Virus record (IMG/VR): IMGVR_UViG_3300017917_001147
Coordinates: 1 to 58,794 of that record
Origin: a virus
Direction: 5' to 3' (one strand)
Length of the DNA: 58,794 nt
Numbering within the stretch: position 1 is the stretch's first letter; each line of letters starts with the position of its first letter. Below are positions 20,031-24,838 of this stretch, one piece after another. The translations under genes and the position numbers were made by a program. The notes beneath the pieces were generated by a model. It saw nothing but the letters and a program-made list of their open reading frames with translations. It had not been told where the DNA came from and searched no databases.

Positions 20031-20046
20031 TGTGATTTATCTCACA
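20031..20046. promoter_or_regulatory. Crp/GlxR-like box TGTGATTTATCTCACA
   Basis: Perfect TGTGA-N6-TCACA half-sites. The identical 16-mer recurs at 23349-23364 and, inverted, at 24823-24838. Confidence 0.7.
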
Positions 20047-20148: not shown

Positions 20149-20868
20149 CTATTTTTTAGATGAACTAAACACTATATCAGACTTATTGTGAACACACAAG
20201 CCACAAGACACACACGCACTTCCAGCGGTAGAGATTAAGGGAATAGCCTTTTTATTCTCAGGACATTTGGCTCCCACTTTACCAATCATTTCTTTCATAT
20301 GTGCTTGACCAGTAGCAAAATTCTTTGCAAGGTATGCCATGCGAATTCCATTATTTAATTTAAGATCCACTGCCTCTTTGATATTAGCACTATCGGCGGA
20401 ATAGTATAAAGATAAATTATCAATACCGTTAAGGATAAGGGCTGCAGACTTTACTCGTGTATATACCCAGAATTGAATATCAGGATGAGTATTGATTACA
20501 TCCTTCCAAGCGATGGCGTAAGTATCATTAAAGAAATCTCCATCCCAGTGAATGCGGAATAGTTTCTCAGCATTGCGCTTATCACAATCTTTTTTAAAAT
20601 CAATAATCATTTCATTAATTAAACTAAACATGCGATCATGATCAGCGTCTTTTAATTGTTCCCAATTGCTTAAGAGTACATTACGTACACCTTTGTAAAT
20701 CTTTTCTAATTTTCCTGCGTAGCAAACACTCTCACAAACACTAGTGGCACCAGGGCATGAATATTGTTTTCCACTAGGCAATCCAAAAGTGTTGGCGATG
20801 GTTGGGGTTTTTCCATTTGGTGAGACTGCATTAGTTACTTTCCTATCTTTACTTCTTATGAGGGCCAT
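20149..20868 (-). CDS. GP88-family phage protein
   Basis: A 239-residue protein of the mycobacteriophage Gp88-like family: TNAVSPNGKTPTIANTFGLP, then YSCPGATSVCESVCYAG (residues 36-52) with three cysteines, FRIHWDGDFFN near 104, VYTRVK near 133, and a C-terminal CVSCGLCVHN. Five or more conserved cysteines suggest a metal or Fe-S centre; some authors have noted radical-SAM-like features but no activity is established. Function unknown. Confidence 0.82.
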   Translation of the reverse strand: MALIRSKDRKVTNAVSPNGKTPTIANTFGLPSGKQYSCPGATSVCESVCYAGKLEKIYKGVRNVLLSNWEQLKDADHDRMFSLINEMIIDFKKDCDKRNAEKLFRIHWDGDFFNDTYAIAWKDVINTHPDIQFWVYTRVKSAALILNGIDNLSLYYSADSANIKEAVDLKLNNGIRMAYLAKNFATGQAHMKEMIGKVGAKCPENKKAIPLISTAGSACVSCGLCVHNKSDIVFSSSKK

Positions 20869-21887: not shown

Positions 21888-22012
21888 TAGTTATATCCTT
21901 TCGCACAATACGAGCATAGCACCATTAACTTACAATAGCAATCTGACACGCTGACTCTTTCATCATCGAAATCGTCATAGCGGTCAAATCCATAATTATC
22001 AAATCTAGACAT
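21887..22012 (-). CDS. 41-residue cysteine-rich peptide
   Basis: MSRFDNYGFDRYDDFDDERV, then CYC and CSYC. Four cysteines suggest a zinc knot. Both ends overlap neighbours by 1 nt. Confidence 0.55.
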   Translation of the reverse strand: MSRFDNYGFDRYDDFDDERVSVSDCYCKLMVLCSYCAKGYN

Positions 22013-22246: not shown

Positions 22247-22275
22247 ATCTTATCAGACATCACTGACATTTTCAA
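22247..22275 (-). promoter_or_regulatory. Composite promoter: TTGAAA-N17-TAAGAT with RecA-NDp pattern
   Basis: Minus strand: -35 TTGAAA 22275-22270; ATGTCAGTG-N8-TAAGAT (22269-22247) lies inside it. GGCGTGTC boxes lie at 22278-22285 and 22354-22361 just upstream. Confidence 0.65.
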
Positions 22276-22277
22276 GC

Positions 22278-22361
22278 GACACGCCGTAAATTACATGAAC
22301 GTAATTCTGTGATCTTAAACACATTCCCATAAAGTTATCCACAGCCTGTGGACGACACGCC
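22278..22361 (-). promoter_or_regulatory. Paired GGCGTGTC boxes with a DnaA box between
   Basis: GGCGTGTC on the minus strand at 22361-22354 and 22285-22278; the second touches the -35 box. TTATCCACA (22335-22343) between them is a perfect DnaA box. Confidence 0.6.
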
Positions 22362-22391
22362 TGCAAAAAAATTGCCCGCATTTTTTAGTGT

Positions 22392-22418
22392 GGAGCAGTT
22401 TTTATTCTTGCTCAGGAA
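22392..22418 (-). repeat. Conserved 3' hairpin element, copy 4
   Basis: Minus strand TTCCTGAGCA...AAAACTGCTCC, 7 nt after the 22425 stop, followed by GCGGGCAA and a T-run (22365-22380), so this copy looks like terminator plus element. Confidence 0.6.
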
Positions 22419-22424
22419 TTTTAT

Positions 22425-22580
22425 TTATTTATTTTTACGGCGTTCAGTTCGCAATGCAACTTGTAAGCGTGTAATTTCTTTATGTAGTTTAAAAGTATTA
22501 TTTACAAATAAACCAATAACTAAAATTGATCCGCTAAGTGCAATAACGATTGCTGCTAATGTGTAATTATCTAAATACAT
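22425..22580 (-). CDS. 51-residue single-pass membrane protein
   Basis: MYLDNYTLAAIVIALSGSIL begins a membrane helix that runs through VIGLFV; a basic helix KEITRLQVALRTERRK follows, probably cytoplasmic. The ATG overlaps the upstream stop (TAATG). Function unknown; an inner-membrane effector is possible. Confidence 0.6.
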   Translation of the reverse strand: MYLDNYTLAAIVIALSGSILVIGLFVNNTFKLHKEITRLQVALRTERRKNK

Positions 22581-22762
22581 TAAGCCACCTCATATTCTTT
22601 CATGCATGCTTGTTCAAATTTAACTCCGTCAAATCTTTCGTTATCAGAATAAAAGAACTCTGAAAACTCATATACTAAATCTTCAAAAGTGGTTTGGTTA
22701 ATTTCACCTTTGAATTGATTTAGAATTTTAGCAGTTGCGATATAGTCTTTTCTAGTCATCAT
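22580..22762 (-). CDS. 60-residue conserved phage protein
   Basis: MMTRKDYIATAKILNQFKGE, LVYEFSEFFYSDNERFDGVK. The RKDY..IA.IL pattern followed by F..DN..FD...F is very common among small actinophage proteins of unknown role. Coupled to both neighbours. Confidence 0.72.
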   Translation of the reverse strand: MMTRKDYIATAKILNQFKGEINQTTFEDLVYEFSEFFYSDNERFDGVKFEQACMKEYEVA

Positions 22763-22923
22763 TATGCGTTCACCTTGTTTTCAATAGCGTTTGAAATCAT
22801 TACATAAGCAGTCGCACAGCGATAGCAATATGTTTCAGTAGGGATACCGCCTAACATCATAGCATCTATTCCTGAATAGACTATGTTAGTTTCTTCGCAG
22901 TTCATTGTTGCACATGTTTTCAT
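22762..22923 (-). CDS. 53-residue protein with two Cys pairs
   Basis: MKTCATMNCEE near the start and YCYRCATAY near residue 34 give C-x4-C and CxxC, a probable zinc site. AAAGGTAAACTATAAA precedes the ATG. Confidence 0.62.
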   Translation of the reverse strand: MKTCATMNCEETNIVYSGIDAMMLGGIPTETYCYRCATAYVMISNAIENKVNA

Positions 22924-22940
22924 TTTATAGTTTACCTTTC

Positions 22941-23087
22941 TTAGTTGTTTTCTGGAGTTGTGAATAAGTTTACAGGATTGTCAACGCATTGGCAAGTTTC
23001 CACGCCGTAGTCGTTTTCATCACCGTAGAATATATAACCATGACCCCCGCAGATATCGCAGGGGATAGATTGAACAGAGTTTATCAT
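22941..23087 (-). CDS. 48-residue zinc-finger-like protein (DnaJ-type CxxCGG)
   Basis: MINSVQSIPCDICGGHGYIF, then CQC. CDICGGHG resembles one half of a DnaJ zinc finger. Its ATG overlaps the preceding stop (ATGA). Confidence 0.6.
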   Translation of the reverse strand: MINSVQSIPCDICGGHGYIFYGDENDYGVETCQCVDNPVNLFTTPENN

Positions 23088-23266
23088 TTAGCAGACCCCC
23101 TAAGAGTTCCACGAATACCAAGAGCGTCGCAGGACATCTTTACAGAGATACCAACAGGCAACTGCTGAGGATATTGGTTAATGAATTGAGCAACTGCTCC
23201 ACGAGAAGGAACAGAGATTTTTTTAGTAGAACCATTAAAGGTTTCTAGTGTTATAGTGTAAGTCAT
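23084..23266 (-). CDS. 60-residue protein, paralog of the rightward gene 25426-25623
   Basis: MTYTITLETFNGSTKKISVP, then FINQYPQQLPVGISVKMSCD and a GIRGTLRG tail. It shares V.FI....LP.......K..CD.LGI.G.L.G with the product of 25426-25623 on the other side of the control region. GAAAGGAAG precedes ATG 23266 and excludes the longer form. Function unknown. Confidence 0.68.
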   Translation of the reverse strand: MTYTITLETFNGSTKKISVPSRGAVAQFINQYPQQLPVGISVKMSCDALGIRGTLRGSAK

Positions 23267-23297
23267 TTTGACTTCCTTTCTTATTTTGTTAGTGATA

Positions 23298-23326
23298 ACT
23301 TTACCATTTAGGGCTGACATTTTCAA
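23298..23326 (-). promoter_or_regulatory. Composite promoter TTGAAA-N17-TAAAGT with RecA-NDp-like core
   Basis: Minus strand -35 23326-23321; ATGTCAGCC-N8-TAAAGT (23320-23298); predicted start near 23291. Crp-like box centred about 65 bp upstream. Confidence 0.6.
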
Positions 23327-23348
23327 GCACCTAAGCGGGGTGTTGCCT

Positions 23349-23364
23349 TGTGATTTATCTCACA
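23349..23364. promoter_or_regulatory. Crp/GlxR-like box TGTGATTTATCTCACA
   Basis: Identical to the box at 20031-20046. It overlaps the stop codon of the 40-residue gene 23360-23482. Confidence 0.7.
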
Positions 23365-23482
23365 AAGCCCCTTCTTGGAATAAGCCTATTTCTAGGTCTA
23401 GCAGAGTTTCTGCGGGGATATCTGAGAGATCAAGCCACTCAGCCCCTTCAGGAGTGATAGTAAATACTTCAATGTAGCCCAT
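23360..23482 (-). CDS. 40-residue hypothetical acidic peptide
   Basis: MGYIEVFTITPEGAEWLDLS, then ETLLDLEIGLFQEGAL. AAAGGTGGTTCATA precedes the ATG. Its promoter TTGATT-N17-TAGACT (23545-23517) has paired GGCGTGTC boxes upstream. Confidence 0.58.
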   Translation of the reverse strand: MGYIEVFTITPEGAEWLDLSDIPAETLLDLEIGLFQEGAL

Positions 23483-23516
23483 TATGAACCACCTTTCTTT
23501 AGTTTCTTACTCCGTA

Positions 23517-23604
23517 AGTCTAACATAAACTATCTTAAAAATCAAATCGACACGCCGTAATTCGGGAAATATTTCTTGTTATCTTAACCACATTGCGACA
23601 CGCC
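23517..23604 (-). promoter_or_regulatory. Promoter TTGATT-N17-TAGACT with paired GGCGTGTC boxes
   Basis: Minus strand: -35 23545-23540, -10 23522-23517; GGCGTGTC at 23556-23549 (3 nt from -35) and 23604-23597. Confidence 0.62.
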
Positions 23605-23648
23605 AGCAAAAATGCTGGCAAATTTTGTAGAAAATAAATTCTACAAAA
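23602..23648 (-). terminator. Tandem hairpins ending the 24428-23659 operon
   Basis: GCCAGCA-AAAA-TGCTGGC (23602-23619) and TTTTGTAGAA with its inverse TTCTACAAAA (23623-23648) lie just after the 23659 stop. The second is followed on the minus strand by TTTGCC. Probably two terminators in series. Confidence 0.6.
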
Positions 23649-23658
23649 CTTTTTTATT

Positions 23659-23760
23659 TTATTTTATTTTTTCTAAAAGTTTTTCTAATTCTTTTAGTTG
23701 TTCTAAATTCAAATGATCTAATTGAATTGCGTTTTCAAATTGTTTTGTTATGTTTTCCAT
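23659..23760 (-). CDS. 33-residue helical peptide
   Basis: MENITKQFENAIQLDHLNLE then a leucine/lysine helix. GAGGAAAAC precedes the ATG. Last gene of the unit. Function unknown. Confidence 0.5.
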   Translation of the reverse strand: MENITKQFENAIQLDHLNLEQLKELEKLLEKIK

Positions 23761-23761
23761 T

Positions 23762-23851
23762 TTAGTTTTCCTCAATTTCGTTTAGTAATTCCCAAAGTAT
23801 TGGCTCTAATTCTTTAGCAGCCAAATCTAATTTATCTTGTAGGTTTTTCAT
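23762..23851 (-). CDS. 29-residue helical peptide
   Basis: MKNLQDKLDLAAKELEPILW then an acidic tail. GAGGAGAAATAA is a strong ribosome binding site. Function unknown. Confidence 0.5.
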   Translation of the reverse strand: MKNLQDKLDLAAKELEPILWELLNEIEEN

Positions 23852-23992
23852 TTATTTCTCCTCAATCTCTGCGACATAGACATGATCTCGGCGCAACTTT
23901 CCAAATTTTAGGTGAGTATCAAATATATCAATTGCGGAATCATAGTCCTCCGCATTTACGGTTACAAATACATTAAATTCAAATTGTTTCAT
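23852..23992 (-). CDS. 46-residue hypothetical protein
   Basis: MKQFEFNVFVTVNAEDYDSA, IDIFDTHLKFGKLRRDHVYV. The beta-alpha-beta look (FEFNVFVTVNAED..SA) suggests a small ferredoxin-like fold. GGAGG lies in the end of the upstream gene. Function unknown. Confidence 0.58.
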   Translation of the reverse strand: MKQFEFNVFVTVNAEDYDSAIDIFDTHLKFGKLRRDHVYVAEIEEK

Positions 23993-24091
23993 TTAAGCCT
24001 CCCAGCAATTAACGCAGACGATTACATCATCAATTTCAAATTCAACACTTGAAACTGATGTTTCACAATTTTTACAATTAAGAGTTATCAT
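23993..24091 (-). CDS. 32-residue zinc ribbon
   Basis: CKNC near residues 6-9 and CVNC near 26-29 make a full CxxC...CxxC zinc ribbon. Coupled to both neighbours. Confidence 0.6.
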   Translation of the reverse strand: MITLNCKNCETSVSSVEFEIDDVIVCVNCWEA

Positions 24092-24253
24092 TTATTCACA
24101 CTCACAATCTTCATACGGATTAAATTCGCAGAATTGACAACCCATAAATTCACTATGTTTTTTACAATAGTATTTGAATTGTAATTCATCACAACAAGAG
24201 AACACTCTCTCCCCAATTTCATAGAATTGGTTTTGATCTATAAGGTAAGACAT
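24092..24253 (-). CDS. 53-residue cysteine-rich protein
   Basis: MSYLIDQNQFYEIGERVFSC, then CCD, CQFC and CEC; eight cysteines in 53 residues suggest one or two zinc sites. Function unknown. Confidence 0.58.
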   Translation of the reverse strand: MSYLIDQNQFYEIGERVFSCCDELQFKYYCKKHSEFMGCQFCEFNPYEDCECE

Positions 24254-24254
24254 A

Positions 24255-24428
24255 TTACTTACCTACTTTCCATGAAGACCAATAAGACATGAAGTCTTCA
24301 TCTTCACGATAGTGAGAAGTTATATTCTGCTCACAATTCTCGCAGAAGGTAAATCTCTGATCATTAACATAAGAGATAGCATTTTGATTAGGTGTATGCT
24401 TACACACTTTATTTTGTAGTGAATTCAT
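24255..24428 (-). CDS. 57-residue zinc-ribbon-like protein
   Basis: MNSLQNKVCKHTPNQNAISY, CENCEQNITSHYRE: C.H...CENC. AAAGGAATTC before ATG 24428 excludes the longer form, which crosses the promoter. First gene of the leftward operon. Confidence 0.62.
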   Translation of the reverse strand: MNSLQNKVCKHTPNQNAISYVNDQRFTFCENCEQNITSHYREDEDFMSYWSSWKVGK

Positions 24429-24474
24429 TTTGAATTCCTTTCTTAGTGAGAGTTTCTCACTTTCTAATAACTTT

Positions 24475-24497
24475 ATTCTAACACCTACCACTGACAA
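24475..24497 (-). promoter_or_regulatory. RecA-NDp-type promoter TTGTCAGTG-N8-TAGAAT
   Basis: Minus strand, exact match to the actinobacterial DNA-damage promoter consensus TTGTCRGTG-N8-TANNNT. Predicted start near 24468. Crp-like box centred about 74 bp upstream. Confidence 0.7.
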
Positions 24498-24512
24498 TTT
24501 GCGTATTACTGA

Positions 24513-24590
24513 CCAGTATGTGAGATGATTTTCTTGTGATCCGTATCACACTACCCCTGTGGATAACTCACCAGTATACTCACCAGTATG
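24513..24590. repeat. Three direct copies of CCAGTATR
   Basis: CCAGTATG 24513, CCAGTATA 24571, CCAGTATG 24583, interleaved with DnaA boxes. Possible iterons. Confidence 0.45.
24535..24550. promoter_or_regulatory. Crp/GlxR-like box TGTGATCCGTATCACA
   Basis: TGTGA-N6-TCACA with a different centre from the other three copies. Confidence 0.65.
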
Positions 24591-24620
24591 AGCGTGTCTG
24601 TGGATAACCCCTGTGGATAG
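24558..24620. other. DnaA box cluster, candidate replication origin
   Basis: TGTGGATAA (inverse of TTATCCACA) at 24558-24566 and 24599-24607, and TGTGGATAG at 24612-24620, in the divergent control region 24429-24927. A further perfect box lies at 22335-22343. An AT-rich stretch follows at 24775-24795. Host DnaA could open DNA here. No origin is proven. Confidence 0.55.
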
Positions 24621-24681
24621 TCAACAACGAGGTCGGGCGTGTCGTTTGCCCGCATTTTTTTGCGTTTGTCAAGTTTTCTTC

Positions 24682-24770
24682 GGCGTGTCGCCGTGTGATA
24701 TAAAACACTAATAACATCCGTGTAATTCACGGCGTGTCGTGTTGACTTTTCGGGTATTGTGTGATAGTAT
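24682..24770 (+). promoter_or_regulatory. Rightward promoter TTGACT-N17-TAGTAT with paired GGCGTGTC boxes
   Basis: -35 24742-24747, -10 24765-24770. GGCGTGTC at 24682-24689 and 24731-24738; a third copy lies at 24636-24643. Spacing of the pair (49) matches the pair at 23549/23597 (48). Confidence 0.65.
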
Positions 24771-24822: not shown

Positions 24823-24838
24823 TGTGAGATAAATCACA
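24823..24838. promoter_or_regulatory. Crp/GlxR-like box TGTGAGATAAATCACA
   Basis: Exact inverse of the boxes at 20031 and 23349. Centred about 64 bp upstream of the start predicted from the promoter at 24866-24888. Confidence 0.7.

Follow-up and report, generated by a model that had tools for sequence, protein, structure and literature searches.

The octamer and its promoters in the window

The viral DNA fragment analysed here, called the window below, is 58,794 bases long and carries a short octamer, GGCGTGTC (GACACGCC on the other strand), that recurs beside promoters at a hub of divergent transcription. The locus raises the question of what this box does there and which protein reads it. 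Seven exact copies are present in the window, all within 2.5 kb (22278 to 24738) and all where a first-pass annotation had placed them, while dinucleotide shuffles give an expected count of 0.17 for the whole window and in no case as many as seven copies. Three of the seven adjoin the -35 hexamers of good sigma-A-type promoters, each with a 17-nt spacer to the -10. On the minus strand, the proximal box of P1 (22278-22285) is followed by TTGAAA (22275-22270) and TAAGAT (22252-22247), and that of P2 (23549-23556) by TTGATT (23545-23540) and TAGACT (23522-23517); on the plus strand, the proximal box of P3 (24731-24738) is followed by TTGACT (24742-24747) and TAGTAT (24765-24770). The boxes end 2, 3, and 3 nt from the -35 of P1, P2, and P3, respectively, which bears out the closeness noted in the annotation but not its range of 2-4 nt. 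A generic promoter scan of this AT-rich hub was not above shuffles (14 versus 12.3), and we take P1-P3 as real on account of their fixed box spacing rather than the scan.

Each of the three promoters has a second, distal copy, located at 22354-22361 (minus) in P1, 23597-23604 (minus) in P2, and 24682-24689 (plus) in P3, and the start-to-start distances within the pairs (76, 48, and 49 bp) equal those annotated. Between the two boxes of P1 lie a DnaA-box-like TTATCCACA (22335-22343) and a CRP-like TGTGATCTTAAACACA (22308-22323), and 4 nt further than the distal boxes of P2 and P3 are the CRP-like TGTGGTTAAGATAACA and TGTGATATAAAACACT (the latter at 24694-24709), each with one mismatch. The order in the window is distal box, CRP-like site, proximal box, and -35. 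Whereas the annotation regarded the pair as the basic unit, the unit is the proximal box, and the distal copy is part of a CRP-site/box module. The seventh copy, annotated at 24636 and found at 24636-24643 (plus), lies within a terminator-like hairpin (24634-24652) and has no promoter at the box-promoter distance. Besides the exact copies, AGCGTGTC at 21945-21952 on the minus strand (GACACGCT on the other strand), which has one mismatch and lies in a small ORF, is probably the fourth box promoter of the window (P0), because TTGCTA and TATGCT follow it at the usual spacing; the arrangement of AGCGTGTC, N3, TTGCTA, 17 nt, and TATGCT is that of the other box promoters.

Other repeated elements were seen in the hub. 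DnaA-box-like copies (TTATCCACA/TGTGGATAA) are located at 22335-22343, 24558-24566, and 24599-24607, and in relatives such copies often adjoin distal boxes (GGCGTGTCGTCCACAGGTTATCCACA); they may possibly mark an origin or DnaA control. A cassette of the form [-35]AA(A/T)TGTCAG occurs at 22275, 23326, ~24501 (minus), and ~24866 (plus), at promoters whether or not they have the box, and it is present in relatives too. ACCAGTAT is present three times in 24510-24595, beside a minus-strand promoter near 24497.

Conservation and promoter geometry in related contigs

We used as relatives the best 80 of 228 viral contigs matching the protein encoded at 20149-20868 (1.32 Mb in total); a megablast search against named phages gave no near DNA relative of the window. 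The 80 contigs contain 352 copies of GGCGTGTC against about 10 expected, and GGCGTGTC and its register shifts GCGTGTCG and CGGCGTGT are their top over-represented octamers. The extended site in relatives is approximately [T/A][A/C][C/G]GGCGTGTCG. Of the AATTNAC that the annotation described before the proximal copy (AATTTAC, AATTAC, and AATTCAC in the window), the relatives keep only T/A-A/C-C, together with a G after the box (GGCGTGTCG). The site is nearly invariant across 9 bp, and its tolerance of substitution is therefore unreadable. Four relatives of 105-123 kb have nearly all their copies in one 2-4 kb hub of diverging transcription and one or two stray copies outside it. The annotation had proposed a motif scan of related phages and would have put the octamer down to chance if it were equally frequent away from promoters or not conserved; it is instead conserved and concentrated in the hub. 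The family that carries the box is a large group of mainly low-GC actinobacterial phages, probably from freshwater. Further octamers, CGGACATT/AATGTCCG and GTTCGGCGG-like words, are also strongly over-represented in these relatives (L008-L087).

After removal of similar sites, 193-208 sites remained, the number varying with the stretch compared, and they fall into two fixed promoter geometries. The forward arrangement (class B) is GGCGTGTC-N3-[-35]-17-TANNNT, with a TANNNT -10 at gap 26 in 56 of 208 sites (median over all gaps, 4), and the reversed arrangement (class A) is GACACGCC-N10-[-35]-17-TANNNT, with the -10 at gap 33 in 57 of 208 sites (median over all gaps, 5). About half of the class A -35 hexamers are without consensus (GCTAAT, CCCAAT, GGCAAA, and others), and for this reason the class A box seems to take the place of the -35. 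If start sites are assumed, the box is located at about -46 to -39 in the forward and -53 to -46 in the reversed orientation, and the GACAC element within it lies near -43 to -39 in class B and -53 to -49 in class A, one helical turn apart. A further minus-strand promoter of the window, P4 (23298-23364), has a CRP-like TGTGATTTATCTCACA (23349-23364) and a degenerate reversed box AACACCCC (23337-23344), which is followed by N10, the -35 TTGAAA (23326-23321), and the -10 TAAAGT; by comparison with class A, it looks like a decayed promoter of that class.

The box is accompanied by CRP-like palindromes that are helically phased relative to it. Matches to TGTGN8CACA lie 3 nt (36 sites) or 13 nt (21 sites) from one side of the box and 10 nt (25 sites) or 20 nt (10 sites) from the other, while a shuffled-flank control gave 19 matches altogether, scattered. 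In both classes the palindrome centre falls at about -64.5 or -74.5, again with the start site assumed. These putative sites are TGTGA-N6-TCACA-like and phased upstream, the two features by which we recognise a CRP/GlxR promoter. Across the entire collection, there are at least 120 matches to the class B pattern and 42 when its octamer is written in reverse order; the class A pattern with N10 has at least 120 and an N15 control 85, raw counts that are not decisive alone. The CRP context is decisive: among the matches listed, 90 of the 108 distinct N10 matches have a CRP-like palindrome no more than 40 bp upstream, versus 0 of 69 N15 matches, and the same context accompanies 40 of 136 box matches versus 0 of 28 reversed-octamer matches. 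Near-perfect TGTGAN6TCACA palindromes also occur in the window at 23349-23364, 24535-24550, 24823-24838, and 20031-20046, some of them at promoters without GGCGTGTC.

The geometry extends beyond the family. In phage contigs with little or no family homology (GC 0.40-0.54), the box keeps the same distance from promoters, and three of these contigs encode WhiB. In G030, a distant relative with a GC content of 0.46, 14 boxes are spread across the early region, 7 of them with a -10 at gap 25-27 and with -35 hexamers that include GATAAG and TAGGTG. DSL-LC01 has 7 octamers, none with promoter geometry. The box geometry is likewise absent from the WhiB-encoding Streptomyces phage BillNye and Rhodococcus phage Weasels2, so it is not a common property of WhiB phages and our claim is limited to this group. 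The spread beyond the family would be best explained by a shared host factor. One WhiB-encoding contig with a GC content of 0.54, L128 (G049:2739-2763), carries the inverted pair GACACGCCCCGGCGTGTC immediately upstream of TTGACA-17-TACAAT.

Identity of the protein that reads the box

The first-pass annotation knew of no actinobacterial regulator with this site. However, GACACGCC contains GACAC, the WhiA motif of Streptomyces, and agrees at all 8 positions with GAYACRCY, the core bound by WhiA of Mycoplasma, a fit that only 16 of the 65,536 octamers have in either orientation. This fit is a partly independent check: WhiA was already the lead, yet its motif is one of several that could have been considered. 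Both the GACAC/GAYACRCY core and its placement upstream of a sigma-A-type promoter, as in WhiA/WhiB promoters, were found here. In Streptomyces, GACAC is bound by WhiA as a monomer, whichever way the motif points with respect to the gene (PMC3781837), and WhiB and WhiA are mutually dependent at shared promoters, where the sole consensus is GACAC (PMC4850268); binding of Mycoplasma WhiA to GAYACRCY was observed by EMSA (PMC11701221). Judged by the motif, WhiA is the somewhat likely reader of the box, although a near-invariant 9-bp phage site is stricter than the Streptomyces WhiA pentamer, which counts against this assignment. Another regulator, FtsR (Rv1828), was considered and rejected, its motif AACCCTAAAGTAAAGGTTGAGGGTA being unlike the box. 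The PF02650 (WhiA) profile had no match above cut-off in 21 phage records. Neither GGCGTGTC nor GACACGCC was found in connection with phage regulation in the set of papers searched, and a survey of WhiB in actinophages makes no mention of WhiA, a binding site, or a promoter.

Of 20 relatives, 15 encode a WhiB-like protein (PF02467), as do 10 of the 11 contigs of at least 85 kb that were selected by the box pattern alone, and the phage protein retains the four cysteines and the GVWGG turn. The window, a 58.8-kb fragment, has no WhiB gene; relatives carry the gene outside the homologous stretch. WhiB is a general actinophage marker, and its presence is for that reason weak evidence of its use here, indicating only that the partner is available. 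Two contigs from Bacteroidota MAGs, L217 (CANGYR010000020.1) and L218 (CAMBYJ010000135.1), carry a WhiB gene whose product shares 69-72% identity with the phage protein and are probably mis-binned phage contigs. The host is an actinobacterium, to judge from WhiB, from the closest named protein relatives (Mycobacterium, Streptomyces, and Rhodococcus phages), and from DUF7455, which we take to be linked to actinobacteria. The labels 'freshwater' and 'Nanopelagicales' are those we infer from the GC content and from published work on phages of this kind, and whiA is assumed to be present in the host.

Proposed mechanism and alternatives

The annotation had suggested a dedicated activator or repressor site at a divergent early hub, and the box is indeed conserved, concentrated in the hub, and fixed in its spacing to the -35 and -10. 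We consider it highly likely from these sequence patterns that the box is an activator element of sigma-A promoters whose position is critical; activation is favored over repression by the geometry and by the way the -35 loses its consensus behind the box. WhiB is said to sit on sigma-A region 4 in the WhiA-WhiB-RNA polymerase structures (PDB 8dy7 and 8dy9), with WhiA reading GACAC upstream. In our proposal, a protein bound to the box just upstream of the -35 would help sigma-A region 4 to hold a good or poor -35. Host WhiA would read the box and be bridged to sigma-A by a WhiB-like protein, which most relatives encode themselves and which the host would supply beforehand, while a CRP/GlxR-type host protein at about -64 or -74 would add upstream activation. 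That the box is a WhiA-type activator site working in this manner at sigma-A promoters of divergent early operons is the best explanation we can offer, with slightly more speaking for it than against it. The full model, in which WhiA, phage WhiB, and CRP all take part, is held more tentatively. Binding by WhiA and CRP, participation of WhiB, the activating effect, and the early timing of the genes are all predicted, the sign of the effect being one that we infer, because Mycoplasma WhiA is a repressor.

A phage-encoded activator unrelated to WhiA might read the box in its place, and so invariant a site would suit a dedicated phage protein. The best candidate is a 180-aa protein encoded near the helicase gene (L223:1118-1660, minus strand), which has a GRPRK AT-hook-like motif and a weak HTH_17 match (E 0.15) and is conserved in four near-complete relatives. 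However, that match is below the Pfam cut-off, the phages that carry the box but share little or no homology with the family showed no homologue of this HTH_17-like protein, and the match to the WhiA core would become a coincidence, so we regard such an activator as unlikely. Short, asymmetric sites repeated in the same orientation beside early promoters could also be taken for operators of a phage repressor, comparable with the asymmetric stoperators of L5-type mycobacteriophages, the more so as WhiA-type proteins are capable of repression. L5-type stoperators have an GGTGGMTGTCAAG-like consensus and are spread genome-wide together with a phage repressor; the box was rejected as such a stoperator, as its sequence differs from GGTGGMTGTCAAG and its sites are confined to one hub. 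Repression also fits poorly with the many promoters that lack a -35 consensus behind the box, as activation predicts, and with two fixed geometries that share a helical face and a phased CRP-like site; no repressor was recognised among the core proteins examined in a non-exhaustive search. This role of the box therefore appears quite improbable. It is very unlikely that a WhiB-like protein alone, without WhiA, reads the box, even though the box lies where Wbl proteins contact DNA beside sigma-A region 4 and most relatives encode WhiB: the same box accompanies WhiB proteins of differing sequence, the only consensus at Streptomyces WhiB targets is the GACAC of WhiA, and a small Wbl protein would hardly read, in both orientations, an asymmetric GC-rich site of 9 bp. 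Chance or a functionless repeat has a negligible probability, being refuted by the conservation in relatives, the fixed geometry, and the collection-wide controls.

Returning to the WhiA-type activator site, we would put forward with some hesitation that the early promoters of a large, mainly freshwater group of actinophages have become tied to host WhiA and CRP at base-exact positions, with a WhiB of the phages' own completing the activator. If true, these viruses would switch on their early genes through a host cell-division regulator (WhiA), and early transcription would be gated by the growth and division state of the host and then reinforced by the phage. It would also explain, for one large group, why so many actinophages carry WhiB, which would serve there as a co-activator of the phage's own early promoters through WhiA sites. 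Hundreds of natural promoters with two WhiA-site geometries and phased CRP-like sites could also reveal the rules of WhiA/WhiB-sigma-A promoters outside Streptomyces.

Comparison with known systems

The palindromes of TGTGA-N6-TCACA type at phased upstream positions resemble those of CRP/GlxR-regulated sigma-A promoters; unlike at usual promoters of this kind, they are always coupled to a WhiA-type box in the modules described. L5-type stoperators are likewise short, asymmetric, and repeated phage sites, but they differ from the box in sequence, whereas the box sites occupy one hub only, keep an exact promoter spacing, and have no recognised repressor. WhiB7-type promoters, in which a Wbl protein acts on sigma-A region 4, also have an element a few nucleotides upstream of the -35 that aids sigma-A; that element is an AT-rich A-tract in WhiB7, whereas the phage box is GC-rich and asymmetric. 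The phage box fits at all eight core positions the WhiA site of the Mycoplasma gallisepticum rpsJ operon, which consists of a GAYACRCY core and a GTTGT auxiliary motif; that site, however, represses a ribosomal operon without WhiB, and GTTGT is not established in the phages. Compared with the WhiA/WhiB sigma-A promoters of Streptomyces and Corynebacterium, the phage promoters are early promoters with a near-invariant 9-bp site, two exact spacings, a phased CRP-like site, and predicted binding, but they share with them a GACAC core in either orientation, its placement upstream of a sigma-A promoter, and, in most relatives, an encoded WhiB-like protein as a potential partner. By these features the phage promoters would work like WhiA/WhiB promoters and are candidate members of that class.
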